Assembly (NCBI GenBank): GCA_937951645.1
Contig: CALFBM010000041.1
Location: 1 to 52,357, forward strand
Source of the DNA: an uncultured Rhizobiaceae group bacterium
Lineage (GTDB): Bacteria > Pseudomonadota > Alphaproteobacteria > Rhizobiales > Rhizobiaceae
Direction: 5' to 3'
Length of the DNA stretch: 52,357 bases
Every line of letters begins with the position of its first letter. Position 1 is the first letter of the stretch. Shown in pieces: positions 1,618 to 52,357 of this stretch. Both the position numbers and the translations under genes were made by a program. The notes below the pieces were generated by a model. It had not been told where the DNA came from. It searched no databases and saw only the letters and a program-made list of their open reading frames with translations.

Positions 1618-1973
1618 AGCATTACCTCAATCATGGAACTCTTTGGGATTACATAATTTGAAGCCTACAGAAACATTCGTCAAATTGCGCTATGGAAGTC
1701 GCATTCCAACTACTCATTATGTCAGTGATTTTTCTATCTTCACATTAAAGTCTGCTAAAACCAAGACTGCTCTTCTACACACATGAATATTTATATGTAT
1801 AAATATATATAATACTATTTTTTTTATTGATTTTATATATTAATAAATAAAATGATAACTAGGGTGTATATTATTTAATTATTACAATTATATTTATTCT
1901 AATGAAGGGGGAGTAACTCCTTCGAGTGCGGTTGGCTCGCGCCCCAGCCTATCAAGTGAGTCAACCGCACGAC
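1618..1973. other. AT-rich intergenic region upstream of dmdA
   Basis: This 356-base gap separates the phzF-like gene from dmdA, both on the minus strand. The part from about 1783 to 1905 is almost pure A+T, with runs such as ATATATA and a T8 tract, and it contains no plausible gene. It presumably holds the dmdA promoter, but I cannot fix a -35/-10 pair with confidence. The end next to the phzF-like gene contains the hairpin listed separately. Confidence 0.6.
1926..1970 (-). terminator. Hairpin just past the stop of the phzF-like gene, possible terminator
   Basis: Arms 1926-1938 and 1958-1970 pair over 13 bp, with one G-U pair and a 19-nt loop. The hairpin sits immediately past the stop codon of the minus-strand phzF-like gene. 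No clear U tract follows in the minus-strand direction, so it could act as a 3'-end stabiliser or a factor-assisted terminator rather than a classical intrinsic one. Confidence 0.45.
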
Positions 1974-2861
1974 TTAAATATGCAATTGTCCTTCACTCAC
2001 AATAACTGCGCTTCCTGATATTGTTGCACTCTTGAGTTCGCCATTTATAACCTCCATACCAAGTTCAATACGAGACGCCCTTCCCATTTCTATTCCTTGA
2101 TCAATAATGAACGTATGATGCCCATCGGCAGGCTTGTCGCAAGCCATGATTTGACCTGCAAATCCGGCAACTGCACTGCCCGTAGCAGGGTCTTCAGGAA
2201 TTCCCATTGCGGGTGCAAACATCCTCACTTGGTAATCTGCCTCAGGTGACAAGGTTTCTTTCGAATAGACAAATATCTCGTCCTCCAAGCCACGAGGTAC
2301 ATTATGTTGCGTTAACAAGCCTGAATTAAGTTTGATGGATTGTAATGCTTTCAAACTTGCAATTGGCAAGGTAGGAAATGGAACACCCGCATCACAAGGT
2401 GCATAGGAATGTCCATCAATGCCAATATCATCGGGCTGTAGCCCAAGTACCTGCGCCATTAAGACAACATCCAGATCAGCCTGAATTCTTGTAGGCAATT
2501 TTGGAATGGAAAAATTAGCCGAACTTTCAGAAACCATGCAAGGCACTAACCCTACATTTTCCTCCAAGACAAGTTCGGCTTCCTCACCCAAACCACCAAG
2601 ATGCGCCAACAAAACAGCAGTCCCCACCGTTGGATGCCCGGCAAACGGCAACTCCCTGCCAGGCGTAAAGATACGTATCTTTGCCCGGTTAGTCTTGTCT
2701 GCTGGGGGCATGACAAAAACTGTTTCTGAAAGATTAAATTCACCCGCAATTCTTTGCATCATTTCATCATCCAGCCCCTCACTGTCCAAGACAACGGCGA
2801 GTGGATTACCAGAAAGTGCCTTATCCGTAAAAACATCAAGTGTGAAATAATGGCGTGGCAT
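1974..2861 (-). CDS. PhzF family isomerase-like protein
   Basis: The product belongs to the PhzF/diaminopimelate-epimerase fold family. Near the N-terminus it has [17 protein letters not shown]-type sequence, then the NLSETVFV segment with the family's conserved glutamate, [12 protein letters not shown], and [13 protein letters not shown] near the C-terminus. I place the start at the ATG at 2861-2859 ([11 protein letters not shown]), which has a GGAG ribosome-binding site six bases upstream. The longer frame to 2915 would add 18 unfamiliar residues and overlap the antiporter gene. The length, 295 residues, is normal for the family. The substrate is unknown, as most PhzF proteins outside phenazine clusters have no assigned reaction. 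It is probably cotranscribed with the antiporter gene upstream. Confidence 0.85.
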
Positions 2862-2883
2862 GATTTTCTCCATATTATGGCTT

Positions 2884-4143
2884 TTAGACAAGTTTTTTAT
2901 CAACCGTGTAAGCAATCAGTTTCTTGACTGTTAAACCTTGAATAATGACAGAAAAAAGAACTACCGCAAAAGTTGCAGTAAGCAACAGTGGTTTATTCTC
3001 ATTATCAGGCAAGGACAACACAAGCGCCACAGATATGCCGCCACGCAACCCACCCCATGTCAGAACAGGAATAGCCCCGCTTGTAAACGTTCTAAATTTT
3101 GACAGGGCAAGAATAGGAATGGCTACTGCAGCAGATCTTGCAGCAAGAACCAGAGGGATGGTGAGAACAATCAACCAGCCAAAGGATGGATCAATTGCAA
3201 CAATCAGGATTTCCAAGCCAATCAACAAGAACAAAACAGAATTTAAAATTTCATCAATCAAATGCCAAAACGAGAACAAATGCTCTGCAGTTTTTTCGCT
3301 CATGCCAACCGATTTACCTCGATTGCCAAGTAAAAGCCCGGTTACAACAACAGCAATCGGACCAGAAAGGTGTAAGCGAAGTGCAATTGCATAAGTTGCC
3401 GCAACAATTCCCAACGATATCAGGATTTCCAAAGTATATTCATCCATGGCCGCCATTGCACGATAGGCAATCCACCCGGTAATCAAGCCAAGAATAGCAC
3501 CGCCAATTGCCTCTACTATGAACAGTTCTGCAATATGCGCAAAATCAATACCGTTTTCTCCATTGCTAACTGCAATCGCCACAACAATGGTAAAAACAAC
3601 CACCCCAACCCCATCATTAAACAGAGATTCACCTGCAATTTTTGCTTCAAGGGCTTGAGGAATATTAACCGATTTCAACAAGCTTAAAACAGCAACAGGG
3701 TCAGTTGGAGAAATCAGGGCGCCAAACACCAATGCCCAGGCATATGGAATATGGACCCCAAACAAATCTGCCAGCAGCCAAAAGCCTGTTCCTACGATAA
3801 AAGTTGATAAAACAACCCCAAATGTTGCCATTAAAAGTATCGGCCATTTTTGATCTGCCATCTTCTCAAAATTAACATGCAGCGCGCCAGCAAACAGCAG
3901 GAACGCCAACATTCCTTCCATGACCGTTGAATAAAAATCAATCTGCCCAATGATTGACTGGAATGTATCTGTTAGCCCAATCGACGGGAAAAACTTTTGC
4001 GCAAGCAACATGGAGAGCGAAGCAAACAAGGATATGACCAATAAGCCAATTGTATGTGGAAGTTTAAAGAACACATGGTTCATCCAGCCAAAGAACGCAG
4101 ACAAGGCCAAAAGCAATGAGGCAATTTCAAAAAGTGATAGCAT
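2884..4143 (-). CDS. Na+/H+ antiporter of the CPA1 (NhaP-like) family
   Basis: This 419-residue inner-membrane protein has about twelve hydrophobic segments and exchanges cytoplasmic Na+ (or another cation) for protons. The CPA1 signature is clear: the ALISPTDPVAV ion-binding helix with Asp148, and AGESLFNDGVGVVVF around residues 170-184 with the Asn-Asp pair. A GGLRGGIS segment near residue 370 is also typical. There is no long C-terminal cytosolic domain. The phzF-like gene starts 22 bases past its stop. The gene diverges from the MscS gene across a 131-bp gap, so two osmotic or ion-stress proteins share a promoter region. Ion specificity cannot be read from the sequence. Confidence 0.9.
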   Translation of the reverse strand: MLSLFEIASLLLALSAFFGWMNHVFFKLPHTIGLLVISLFASLSMLLAQKFFPSIGLTDTFQSIIGQIDFYSTVMEGMLAFLLFAGALHVNFEKMADQKWPILLMATFGVVLSTFIVGTGFWLLADLFGVHIPYAWALVFGALISPTDPVAVLSLLKSVNIPQALEAKIAGESLFNDGVGVVVFTIVVAIAVSNGENGIDFAHIAELFIVEAIGGAILGLITGWIAYRAMAAMDEYTLEILISLGIVAATYAIALRLHLSGPIAVVVTGLLLGNRGKSVGMSEKTAEHLFSFWHLIDEILNSVLFLLIGLEILIVAIDPSFGWLIVLTIPLVLAARSAAVAIPILALSKFRTFTSGAIPVLTWGGLRGGISVALVLSLPDNENKPLLLTATFAVVLFSVIIQGLTVKKLIAYTVDKKLV

Positions 4144-16073: not shown

Positions 16074-19238
<3,165 letters not shown>

Positions 19239-21305: not shown

Positions 21306-21667
21306 AAACTTCTCTCCTTGTTCTTTGAAAAACAGATGTCATGGAGAATACCCACACCCCATTAGCCTATCGACATCCGATCAAAGAATTATCCAAAAAC
21401 AGGATACCCTCAAACTTTAGTATAAACGTATGATTTTTTATAATGATCTGTAATTTTATAAAATTGGAAATTTATGACTTATTATAAGGGCTTTATCAGG
21501 CTTATTCTCTGTATTATTCGGTCAAGACAATATTAAATAGTTATTGAGCATTCAAACAATTATCAAAATTGGGGCCGAGTGAGCTGTTTGCAAACCTGCC
21601 TTTTGCTTGTGGCGAAACACACTTCCGCATTCACTAGCCCGAGGCCCGAACTGTGTTCTCCAACAGC

Positions 21668-21862
21668 GAAGCAAACCCTTCTGGTTTGTTCGCCAATAAA
21701 TAATACGAACAGTTCAAAAAGAACTGCTTCGTGAAGCAAACCCTTCTGGTTTGTTCGCCAATAAATAATACGAACAGTTCAAAAAGAACTGCTTCGTGAA
21801 GCAAGTCCTTTTGACTTGTTCACCAATAAATAATGCAAACAGACCAAAAGGGTCTGCTTTGC
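21668..21862. repeat. 65-bp tandem repeat, three units, each with two inverted bulged hairpins
   Basis: Units start at 21668, 21733 and 21798. The first two are identical over all 65 bases; the third differs at many sites. Each unit holds a hairpin of the form GAA-g-CAnnnC, a 5-nt pyrimidine loop, GnnnTG-TTC, then a constant CCAATAAATAAT spacer, then the same hairpin in reverse orientation with a purine loop. Substitutions in the stems of the third unit come as compensating pairs, so pairing is kept. Confidence 0.92.
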
Positions 21863-21873
21863 AAAACAAACAT

Positions 21874-21935
21874 GCAGGGTTCTCAGTTGAAAGCCTCTAC
21901 TATTTGTGTATGTGGCTCTCGACTGAGAACCCTGC
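21874..21935. repeat. Long inverted repeat (21-nt arms)
   Basis: Arms 21874-21894 and 21915-21935 are complementary over 21 positions, with one G-U pair and one mismatch, around a 20-nt loop. No U tract directly follows on either strand, so it is not a typical intrinsic terminator. Confidence 0.85.
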
Positions 21936-22077
21936 GCAGAGATTTTTAGTGCCGCCTCACGGGATAAATCGCGCGGGTCGGCCTTCCAGGAGGGAATGCA
22001 CCCGACATGCACTCCTTACCGCTCTACTGTCTCTGTCCTCGCTTAACTTCGGTGGCCAAACTAAGTTTGTTTCATCT

Positions 22078-22139
22078 CGAAGCAACTCTTTTTGAATTGC
22101 TCGAAAATCAAATCAAAGCAGTTCCTTTTGAACTGTTTG
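22078..22139. repeat. Two further hairpins of the same family
   Basis: Hairpins at 22078-22103 and 22114-22139 have the same shape as those in the 65-bp repeats: a flanking triplet or quartet, an unpaired G on the 5' side, a stem beginning CA and ending TG, and a 5-nt pyrimidine-rich loop. The second has a perfect six-bp inner stem with loop CTTTT. The stem sequences differ from the other copies while the architecture is kept. Confidence 0.75.
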
Positions 22140-22270
22140 AAAAGGTTGAACAGACGATATGTTGATTATGTAGCAGGGTTAAGAGGCGGGGATAATTTTT
22201 TTAAAATAATATTTCAATGAGTACCCATAGCACAAGTAGGCCATTGTAAGCATGGCGTAATACGGCAAGG

Positions 22271-50582: not shown

Positions 50583-50951
50583 ATGGAAACCGTAATTATT
50601 GTAATCCATTTGATGATTGTAGTTGCACTTGTAATCGTTGTGCTTTTACAGCGTTCAGAAGGCGGCGCGCTTGGTATGGGCGGCGGCGGCGGTTCTGGCG
50701 GTGGCTTCATGTCTGCACGCGGTGCTGCAAATGCGCTGACACGTACAACAGCAATTCTGGCAGCAGCCTTTTTTGTAACTTCAATCACGCTGGGCATTAT
50801 TTCAGGCGTTGAAGGCGGTGGGGTTCTGGATAATCTGCCATTGCAAGAACAACAAGGCGGTGAAGGCGGTATTCTTGACCAGCTTCCGGGCGGTGGTGAT
50901 CTTTCCGGTGATGATGCCACACAAGAACCGCAAGTTCCTACTTCACAATAA
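50583..50951 (+). CDS. secG: Protein translocase subunit SecG
   Basis: SecG joins SecY and SecE in the inner-membrane translocon. The 122-residue protein has two transmembrane segments (about residues 2-20 and 52-75), with the conserved VVLLQRSEGGALGMGGGGG loop and an ARGAANALTRTTAILA stretch between them. A Gly/Gln-rich tail follows, as is common in alphaproteobacteria. The ATG is preceded by ACGGGG. A strong terminator separates it from pyrG. Confidence 0.94.
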   Translation: METVIIVIHLMIVVALVIVVLLQRSEGGALGMGGGGGSGGGFMSARGAANALTRTTAILAAAFFVTSITLGIISGVEGGGVLDNLPLQEQQGGEGGILDQLPGGGDLSGDDATQEPQVPTSQ

Positions 50952-50970
50952 ATTGGTGCAAATTTTTCAT

Positions 50971-51007
50971 AAAAATGCCTCTAAATTATTTTAGAGGCAT
51001 TTTTTTT
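50971..51007 (+). terminator. Strong intrinsic terminator of secG
   Basis: Arms 50971-50985 and 50990-51004 form a perfect 15-bp stem with a TTAT loop, and the T run continues to 51007. The stem's A/T flanks make it look bidirectional, but only the + strand has a gene ending here. It lies 59 bases before the pyrG start. Confidence 0.95.
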
Positions 51008-51014
51008 GGGATAG

Positions 51015-52357
<1,343 letters not shown>

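Follow-up and report, generated by a model that had tools for sequence, protein, structure and literature searches.

A tandem array of REP-like bulged hairpins in a slot of a larger mosaic intergenic element of Rhizobiaceae

Introduction

The RIME/ABC elements of rhizobia are intergenic mosaics made from palindromic modules. When stems of repeated sequences vary by compensatory changes, these changes are usually taken as strong evidence for a selected RNA, and in a selected RNA G.U pairs are expected to be well above A.C mismatches in number. Compensatory changes are also common in REPINs, inverted doublets of REP sequences that form tandem clusters including their flanks (described in the available portion of PMC3116915). 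Some REP classes do without a GTAG-type tetranucleotide, according to the accessible part of PMC6006769, and the CGTC-tagged extragenic palindromes of alphaproteobacteria seem, as far as the available text of PMC3733652 goes, to have no dedicated transposase.

Here we describe an array of three 65-bp repeats found in a 52,357-nucleotide stretch of DNA from an uncultured Rhizobiaceae group bacterium (contig CALFBM010000041.1; the whole stretch is called the window below). An initial annotation of this array had concluded from its paired stem changes that selection for pairing implies a structured RNA, a protein-bound cruciform or a mobile palindromic element. The likeness of the tandem hairpins is to known mobile palindromes rather than to a single new RNA gene, and the array turned out to occupy part of a longer element.

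Results

The 65-bp array

The array extends from position 21668 to position 21862 of the window and was read on the plus strand. As the initial annotation had stated, units 1 (21668–21732) and 2 (21733–21797) are identical in sequence, unit 2 being a tandem duplication, and they are followed by a divergent unit 3 (21798–21862; 77% identity). Each unit carries the same bulged GAAGCA hairpin twice, in opposite orientations on either side of an AT-rich spacer, again in agreement with the first description. Pattern matching located the plus-strand copies at 21669–21691, 21734–21756 and 21799–21821, and the minus-strand copies at 21707–21729, 21772–21794 and 21837–21859, in units 1, 2 and 3 respectively. 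Two further pattern matches, both on the plus strand (22080–22102 and 22116–22138), lie in a second, 3′ slot beyond the array and bring the number of hairpins to the eight counted initially.

Unit 3 differs from the other two units at 15 sites. Ten of these sites are in stems, where they form five two-sided changes among the 19 pairs counted, with no one-sided change: A-T to G-C and C-G to T-A in hairpin 1, and G-C to A-T, T-A to A-T and T-A to C-G in hairpin 2. These are the helix-keeping types listed in the initial annotation. When ten stem substitutions were placed at random, all 19 pairs were retained (G.T allowed) in 4 of 200,000 placements. Of the remaining five differences, those at unit positions 14 and 53 are in loops, and those at 25, 38 and 65 immediately flank the counted stems; positions 38 and 65 are opposite each other and change jointly from A-T to G-C. 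Folded as DNA, the array (21660–21866) reached −49.4 kcal/mol, compared with a shuffle mean of −18.4 (z −9.96).

The hairpin variants of unit 3 are also present at unrelated loci, C208 and C191, and one of them occurs in the related genome G006 as well. As they are not private to the array, unit 3 is not necessarily a point-mutated descendant of unit 1. The C208 copy has a single unit ahead of its unit-3-like unit, which is one unit fewer than in the window.

The bulged palindrome and its dispersal

The palindrome shared by these hairpins is the 25-nt sequence GAA[G]CA-n4-loop(5)-n4-TGTTC, in which the bracketed G is unpaired (bulged). Among the fetched loci, 48 distinct hairpins keep nine pairs (G.T allowed), and the bulge base, left free in that search, is G in 47 of them. 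In a set of 33 distinct hairpins, for which the pattern fixed the bulge base, variation at stem positions 7 and 9 mostly affects both partners of a pair, and that at position 8 does so to a large extent.

Searched with up to three mismatches, the 25-nt query gave 40 matches in six of the 11 other genomes of the genus (16 each in G010 and G006, three each in G008 and G001, one each in G002 and G011), compared with none for the reversed pattern; it had no match in G003, G004, G005, G007 or G009. In the genome of the window, a degenerate hairpin pattern with up to three mismatches matched 35 times, compared with 11 for the reversed control. The palindrome is dispersed both within copies of the larger element described below (many loci) and outside them; the extragenic location of the hairpins was judged by eye at some loci. 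The clearest hairpins with no signature of the larger element nearby are at L130 and, in this genome, at L031, where the hairpin adjoins the start of an ileS-like gene (named by eye). At L133 and L134 the hairpins lie ahead of a thioesterase-like gene in G002 and G008 (by eye), with just single weak signature matches nearby.

Neighbouring hairpins at most 40 nt apart formed 11 distinct pairs, five direct, four inverted in the +− order and two in the −+ order. The four inverted +− doublets have an AT spacer of 15–16 nt; three are from this genome, where the doublet recurs in another copy, and one is from a second species (G010).

The likeness to REP and REPIN sequences lies in the small imperfect palindrome, the tandem clusters of near-identical doublets including their flanks, the compensatory stem changes and, for four of the 11 pairs, the inverted arrangement with a spacer. 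Unlike them, the present hairpins lack a GTAG-type tag (GTAG or CTAC was found in the 8-nt flanks of none of the 48) and a transposase gene bracketed by the palindrome, their copy number is low, they are often tied to a larger structured element, and direct pairs are common. The array is closest to REP/REPIN biology, with two defining features, the GTAG-type tag and the bracketed RAYT gene, missing. CGTC REPs offer a second likeness, as alphaproteobacterial extragenic palindromes for which a dedicated transposase is seemingly absent (within the accessible part of PMC3733652). However, CGTC or GACG was present in the 8-nt flanks of one hairpin of 48, and the CGTC-type palindromes near some element copies are separate sequences. 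Such alphaproteobacterial CGTC-type palindromes were seen by eye to adjoin several copies (L062, L170 and L173).

A larger mosaic element

Positions 21668–21862 are just one slot of a longer element that extends from about 21628 to 22202 in the window, and this larger element is the more interesting part of the finding. It is multi-copy, mosaic, structured and intergenic, and about 350–650 nt long. Read on the plus strand, it has a likely 5′ limit at a conserved motif (CATTCACTMGCCC..GAACKGTGTT, 21628–21658) that is found upstream of core copies. The array follows, and then the structured core (21866–22037), represented by covariance model R1 and made of a long hairpin and a domain with two further covarying stems. 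The long hairpin, H1 (21874–21935), is one of several recurring types. A closing helix, P2, joins a left arm ACAAAC (21866–21871) to a right arm GTTTGT (22065–22070), and beyond the second hairpin slot a conserved 3′ end motif, recognized by pattern matches, ends in a T run (22164–22201).

With two mismatches allowed, the 5′ motif precedes the core in 24 of the 28 copies extracted; a shorter form of the 3′ motif follows the core in 21 of the 28, and six of the seven others end at a contig end. With a longer 3′ pattern, 11 of 14 genomes were positive (69 matches in total), whereas its reversed control had no match; this pattern was derived from the ends found in G000, G008 and G010, others having been seen already, and the independent genomes among the positive ones are G004, G007 and G009. 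At 11 of 33 5′ ends, the 75 nt upstream contain a palindrome of at least 8 bp, compared with one of 31 in a control stretch.

Six further copies of the core are present in this genome. By DNA match it was found in seven of 101 genomes, all within the genus and including this one. The initial annotation had proposed a search for more copies with a covariance model of the eight hairpins; copies were indeed found in the own genome and in relatives, at least 13 of 396 genomes being positive with the covariance model of the core. These comprise nine genomes of the genus (own included), two of other genera of the same family with clear scores (G015 and G245) and two weak matches; about seven candidates were scored per genome, so that these counts are lower bounds. 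An exact core pattern found ten stretches in genome_contigs, from three MAGs titled uncultured Rhizobiaceae (group) bacterium.

A second subfamily is distinguished by another type of long hairpin and by a GATTTGATG junction. At E <= 1, R1 recognized none of seven second-subfamily loci (L151, L161, L160, L165, L167, L156 and L176); it scored L180 at only 20 bits, and gave a chance-level match at window positions 50915–51026 (E 0.076). What connects the second subfamily with the first is therefore limited to their end motifs, helix P2 and the layout. The arms of P2 are GCACAAC/GTTGTGC in the second subfamily and ACAAAC/GTTTGT here; in an arm-matching test on 32 rows, which include a few accidental ones such as L124 and L154, matched arms scored 6.66, mismatched arms 5.37 and shuffled arms 4.62.

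At five loci (L143, L145, L152, L161 and L172) an element slot is occupied by another recurring module, CCCTCCGTGGCAG...GTGAACGGACG. This module was also observed standing alone at L139, beside an apparent RNase P RNA gene.

As intergenic mosaics of palindromic modules, BIMEs and RIME/ABC elements are comparable to this element (RIME by description alone), but the present frame is longer, is closed by a long-range helix and has motifs that recur at both its 5′ and its 3′ end. Non-autonomous derivatives of IS200/IS605 are comparable in their hairpins, and a Y1 transposase is present in the genome; however, the ends of the element seem, by eye, to differ from those of the resident IS200-type copies, as far as the latter, cut by contig ends, can be seen. 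The element is long, structured and covarying, as are the large structured bacterial ncRNAs of Rfam, yet no Rfam family reached the gathering score over it in the window or in 11 loci, the one match in the window being a tRNA elsewhere. A low threshold gave nine matches, to eight miRNAs and one Bacteroides sRNA, all far below the cut-off. Identity with a known RNA family was rejected on this basis. A phage origin was rejected because window positions 21560–22210 had no match in phages and the core pattern none in viral_contigs, and a plasmid origin because neither the core nor two queries, from L160 and L096, had a plasmid match. Judged from Rfam and from a literature search that covered few subscription papers, the larger element appears to be undescribed so far.

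Covariation of the core and strand tests

The structure of the core was evaluated on 16 of 27 aligned copies, from G000, G002, G008 and G010. The copies set aside were truncated or broken (L048, L062), divergent (L049, L055, L059) or had an extended P5 (L053, L058, L061, L064, L065, L066). In the 16 copies, 92.4% of the 765 cells pair, 21 of the 48 pairs have changed on both sides, and two G.U pairs are retained in all copies. Core covariation was 0.299, compared with 0.138 in shuffles, which ignore relatedness (0 of 500 reached the observed value), and with at most 0.068 in slid versions, used as a second control. The initial annotation had proposed a test of covariation, and covariation of the core does exceed the controls used. 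One of the five covariation measures, the number of further pair types, showed no excess (35 compared with 35.0 in shuffles). Many loop and junction positions are invariant across the 16 copies (four genomes), and some of them vary in divergent copies.

These properties bear on a possible but rather doubtful alternative, namely that the larger element is a multi-copy family of structured ncRNA genes of 350–650 nt, read from the plus strand and ending in a U run, in which the array is a peripheral expansion segment. If this were true, there would be a discrete plus-strand RNA with its 5′ end near the CATTCACTCG motif and its 3′ end at the T run. The covariation, the 21 pairs changed on both sides and the two constant G.U pairs agree with such a gene family, as do the closing helix, the recurrent end motifs with their T run and the clear core scores in two other genera. 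The strand tests argue against it. The core cells contain 56 G.U and 43 A.C, in 13 and 16 pair columns respectively; without H1 the numbers are 39 and 14, the two invariant G.U pairs accounting for 32 of the 39. The marked excess of G.U over A.C that is the signature of a strand-specific RNA was thus not observed in the aligned core copies. Folding gave a z of −11.0 for the plus strand and −9.4 for the minus strand. Four terminator-like sites were detected (1.2 expected), all on the minus strand and inside palindromes; a plus-strand terminator-like hairpin was looked for at the 3′ end of the element and not found, and promoter-like sites over the element were as numerous as in shuffled sequence. 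With little G.U bias and both strands folding, the strand tests single out no RNA. The absence of an Rfam family at gathering score also speaks against this gene family, as do the failure of R1 to recognize the second subfamily, linked to the first by end motifs and P2 only, the arms of different types in H1 of two of the 16 copies (see below), and the region upstream of the 5′ motif, where no common sequence was seen by eye save palindromes and orthologous sites. A structured RNA, as proposed initially, may be present in the larger core, which covaries strongly, but the strand tests do not point to RNA.

Probable exchange of hairpins between loci

Hairpin types differ between orthologous sites. 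Downstream of a proV-like gene, the type of the long hairpin is not the same in G000, in G008 and G002, and in G010, and beside a small AsnC-like gene the element belongs to subfamily I in G000 and to subfamily II in G010. The same long-hairpin types recur at other loci. In two of the 16 aligned copies, L005 and L051, H1 has a left arm of one type and a right arm of another; the arms match at 8 and 10 of 14 sites, respectively, compared with 10–13 in the other 14 copies. Type switching at orthologous sites fits inter-copy conversion or repeated arrival at one place.

With types that recur across loci and arms that are chimeric, a stem changed on both sides is not necessarily the outcome of selected mutations that followed one another. 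A further, non-selective source of paired stem changes can be template switching, in which one event is enough to create or repair a stem (available part of PMC8794818). Since variant exchange or template switching can mimic selected compensation, the pattern of the array is no proof of RNA. The initial conclusion that selection for pairing implies one of three functional structures was consequently too strong: variants recur across loci, arms are chimeric, and exchange or template switching can give the same pattern.

The same processes could account for the array entirely if the hairpins were neutral quasi-palindromes, with paired changes produced by template switching and by gene conversion between copies, and with no present function or mobility. 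This explanation, which we consider unlikely, draws on the near strand symmetry of the mismatches, on the discrete hairpin types common to several loci, on the chimeric arms and on the exact duplication of unit 1, in addition to the single-event making and repair of stems by template switching. It accounts poorly for the bulged G, which would be lost by perfect repair and yet is kept in 47 of 48 hairpins, for the many loop and junction positions that are invariant in the 16 copies, some of which change in divergent copies, and for a 3′ motif present in 11 of 14 genomes.

Transposases and mobility

The present assembly is 81.6% complete and contains four Y1 transposase matches, every one cut by contig ends. 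The one that was scanned, L009, is of the IS200/IS605 type. IS200-type TnpA pieces ending at contig ends (L009–L012) suggest that this genome has several copies. No RAYT-type gene was found in this assembly; given its completeness, a cognate transposase gene may have escaped sampling.

Elsewhere in the genus (11 genomes), Y1 matches were obtained in G006 and G010 alone; both belong to the REP-associated type, with 81.0 bits for G006 and 69.7 bits for G010 (cut-off 80). The corresponding REP-associated tyrosine transposase genes are located at L150 1204–1863 and L151 1108–1860. G006 and G010 are the hairpin-richest relatives by the 25-nt query, which would suit mobilization. No hairpin was found near the G006 gene within the 3.2 kb fetched, and near the G010 gene two strict hairpins are confined to one side, where both belong to a copy of the larger element at a distance of 175 bp. 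As the GAAGCA hairpin does not flank either gene on both sides, mobilization by these Y1 genes in the manner of RAYTs is unsupported. The G010 gene sits between AAACTGTCC repeats of the same orientation and might, at a guess, be of the TIRYT kind, a transposase kind mentioned in the accessible part of PMC6006769. Next to the G006 gene, L150 ~1908–3090 is bounded by long inverted repeats containing CGGTTACTGTCACGGTAAT and includes two small reading frames; by eye it is possibly a separate insertion.

No clean empty site was found in the three orthologous neighbourhoods read. The element is absent, for example, downstream of the proV-like gene in G001 and G006, and within 1.5 kb of the AsnC-like gene in G002, G008 and G003; in G006 it begins near the end of this 1.5 kb stretch. 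At the sites without the element the sequence beyond differs too, so that no junction is definable. The site in the window is not comparable, since a DNA search of the 11 other genus genomes did not find the universal-stress-protein (USP)-like gene that adjoins its element. Among the possibilities raised initially, a mobile palindromic element fits best, the hairpin being dispersed as doublets, direct pairs and singles; since the sites lacking the element gave no definable junction, its movement is a part that we only infer.

Neighbouring genes

The tandem inverted hairpins of the window, with their fixed spacing, lie upstream of the divergent USP-like gene (identified by eye), an arrangement compatible with a protein-bound cruciform or an operator array that would regulate or insulate neighbour genes. 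We hold this to be very improbable, as copies occur in many contexts with no common target gene by eye, and as the sole recurring neighbour noticed, besides orthologous sites, is a small gene found beside four copies. This gene, divergent from the element at L169, L088, L094 and L162, encodes a small Cys-rich protein with a CxGGPRGTC-like motif; the four loci are from four genomes and two genera, L169 being the same place as L007. Two of the proteins were scanned and had no Pfam or NCBIfam match, and a search for the motif found it in no other fetched locus. We retain it as an observation rather than as a partner gene of the element.

On contig C88 of the same genome, a sister copy of the element lies beside an AsnC-like gene; its 3′ part is closely like that of the window until the contig end, and its P5 differs. 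In G010, an AsnC-like gene, an element and rpsB are present on one contig in that order. From these two observations, the window may have been joined at the repeat as an assembly chimera (21560–22202; L003, L182 and L184). Elsewhere in the window (16945–17019), a 6-bp tandem repeat, CAGAGC, encodes repeated Pro-Glu within a protein that, by eye, resembles a histidine kinase.

Discussion

The reading that we favour, and hold to be somewhat probable, is that short REPIN-like units, clustered in tandem, make up the 65-bp array and occupy one slot of a larger structured, multi-copy intergenic element. The palindromes would spread, now or formerly, as single-stranded DNA hairpins on which a HUH/Y1-type or other replication-linked enzyme may act, and they would accumulate in the slots that the larger element provides. 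There, tandem duplication would enlarge the array, whose paired stem changes would come mainly from the exchange of existing variants and from template switching during replication. Hairpin formation may be kept because the copies that form hairpins are those that propagate.

Several observations fit this REPIN-like reading less well. No dedicated transposase was found, the copy number is at most 16 per relative, and five genomes of the genus gave no hairpin. The five distinct direct pairs are as common as the four inverted +− doublets, and the conservation of the core exceeds the needs of a mere landing platform.

More tentatively, the copies may together form an undescribed family of mosaic elements of Rhizobiaceae. 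Such elements would consist of a scaffold acting at the level of RNA or of single-stranded DNA, with recurrent motifs at its ends, fixed slots and a helix that closes it over a long range; helices would be swapped between loci as ready-made hairpin cassettes, the scaffold staying in place at some orthologous sites. Were this the case, these elements would evolve via the exchange of whole paired stems. As compensatory variants are common to several loci and species, the present case can be used to test stem evolution by exchange or template switching. The larger element itself is present in most genomes of the genus that were searched, and it is a structured sequence to which no Rfam family corresponds at gathering score.
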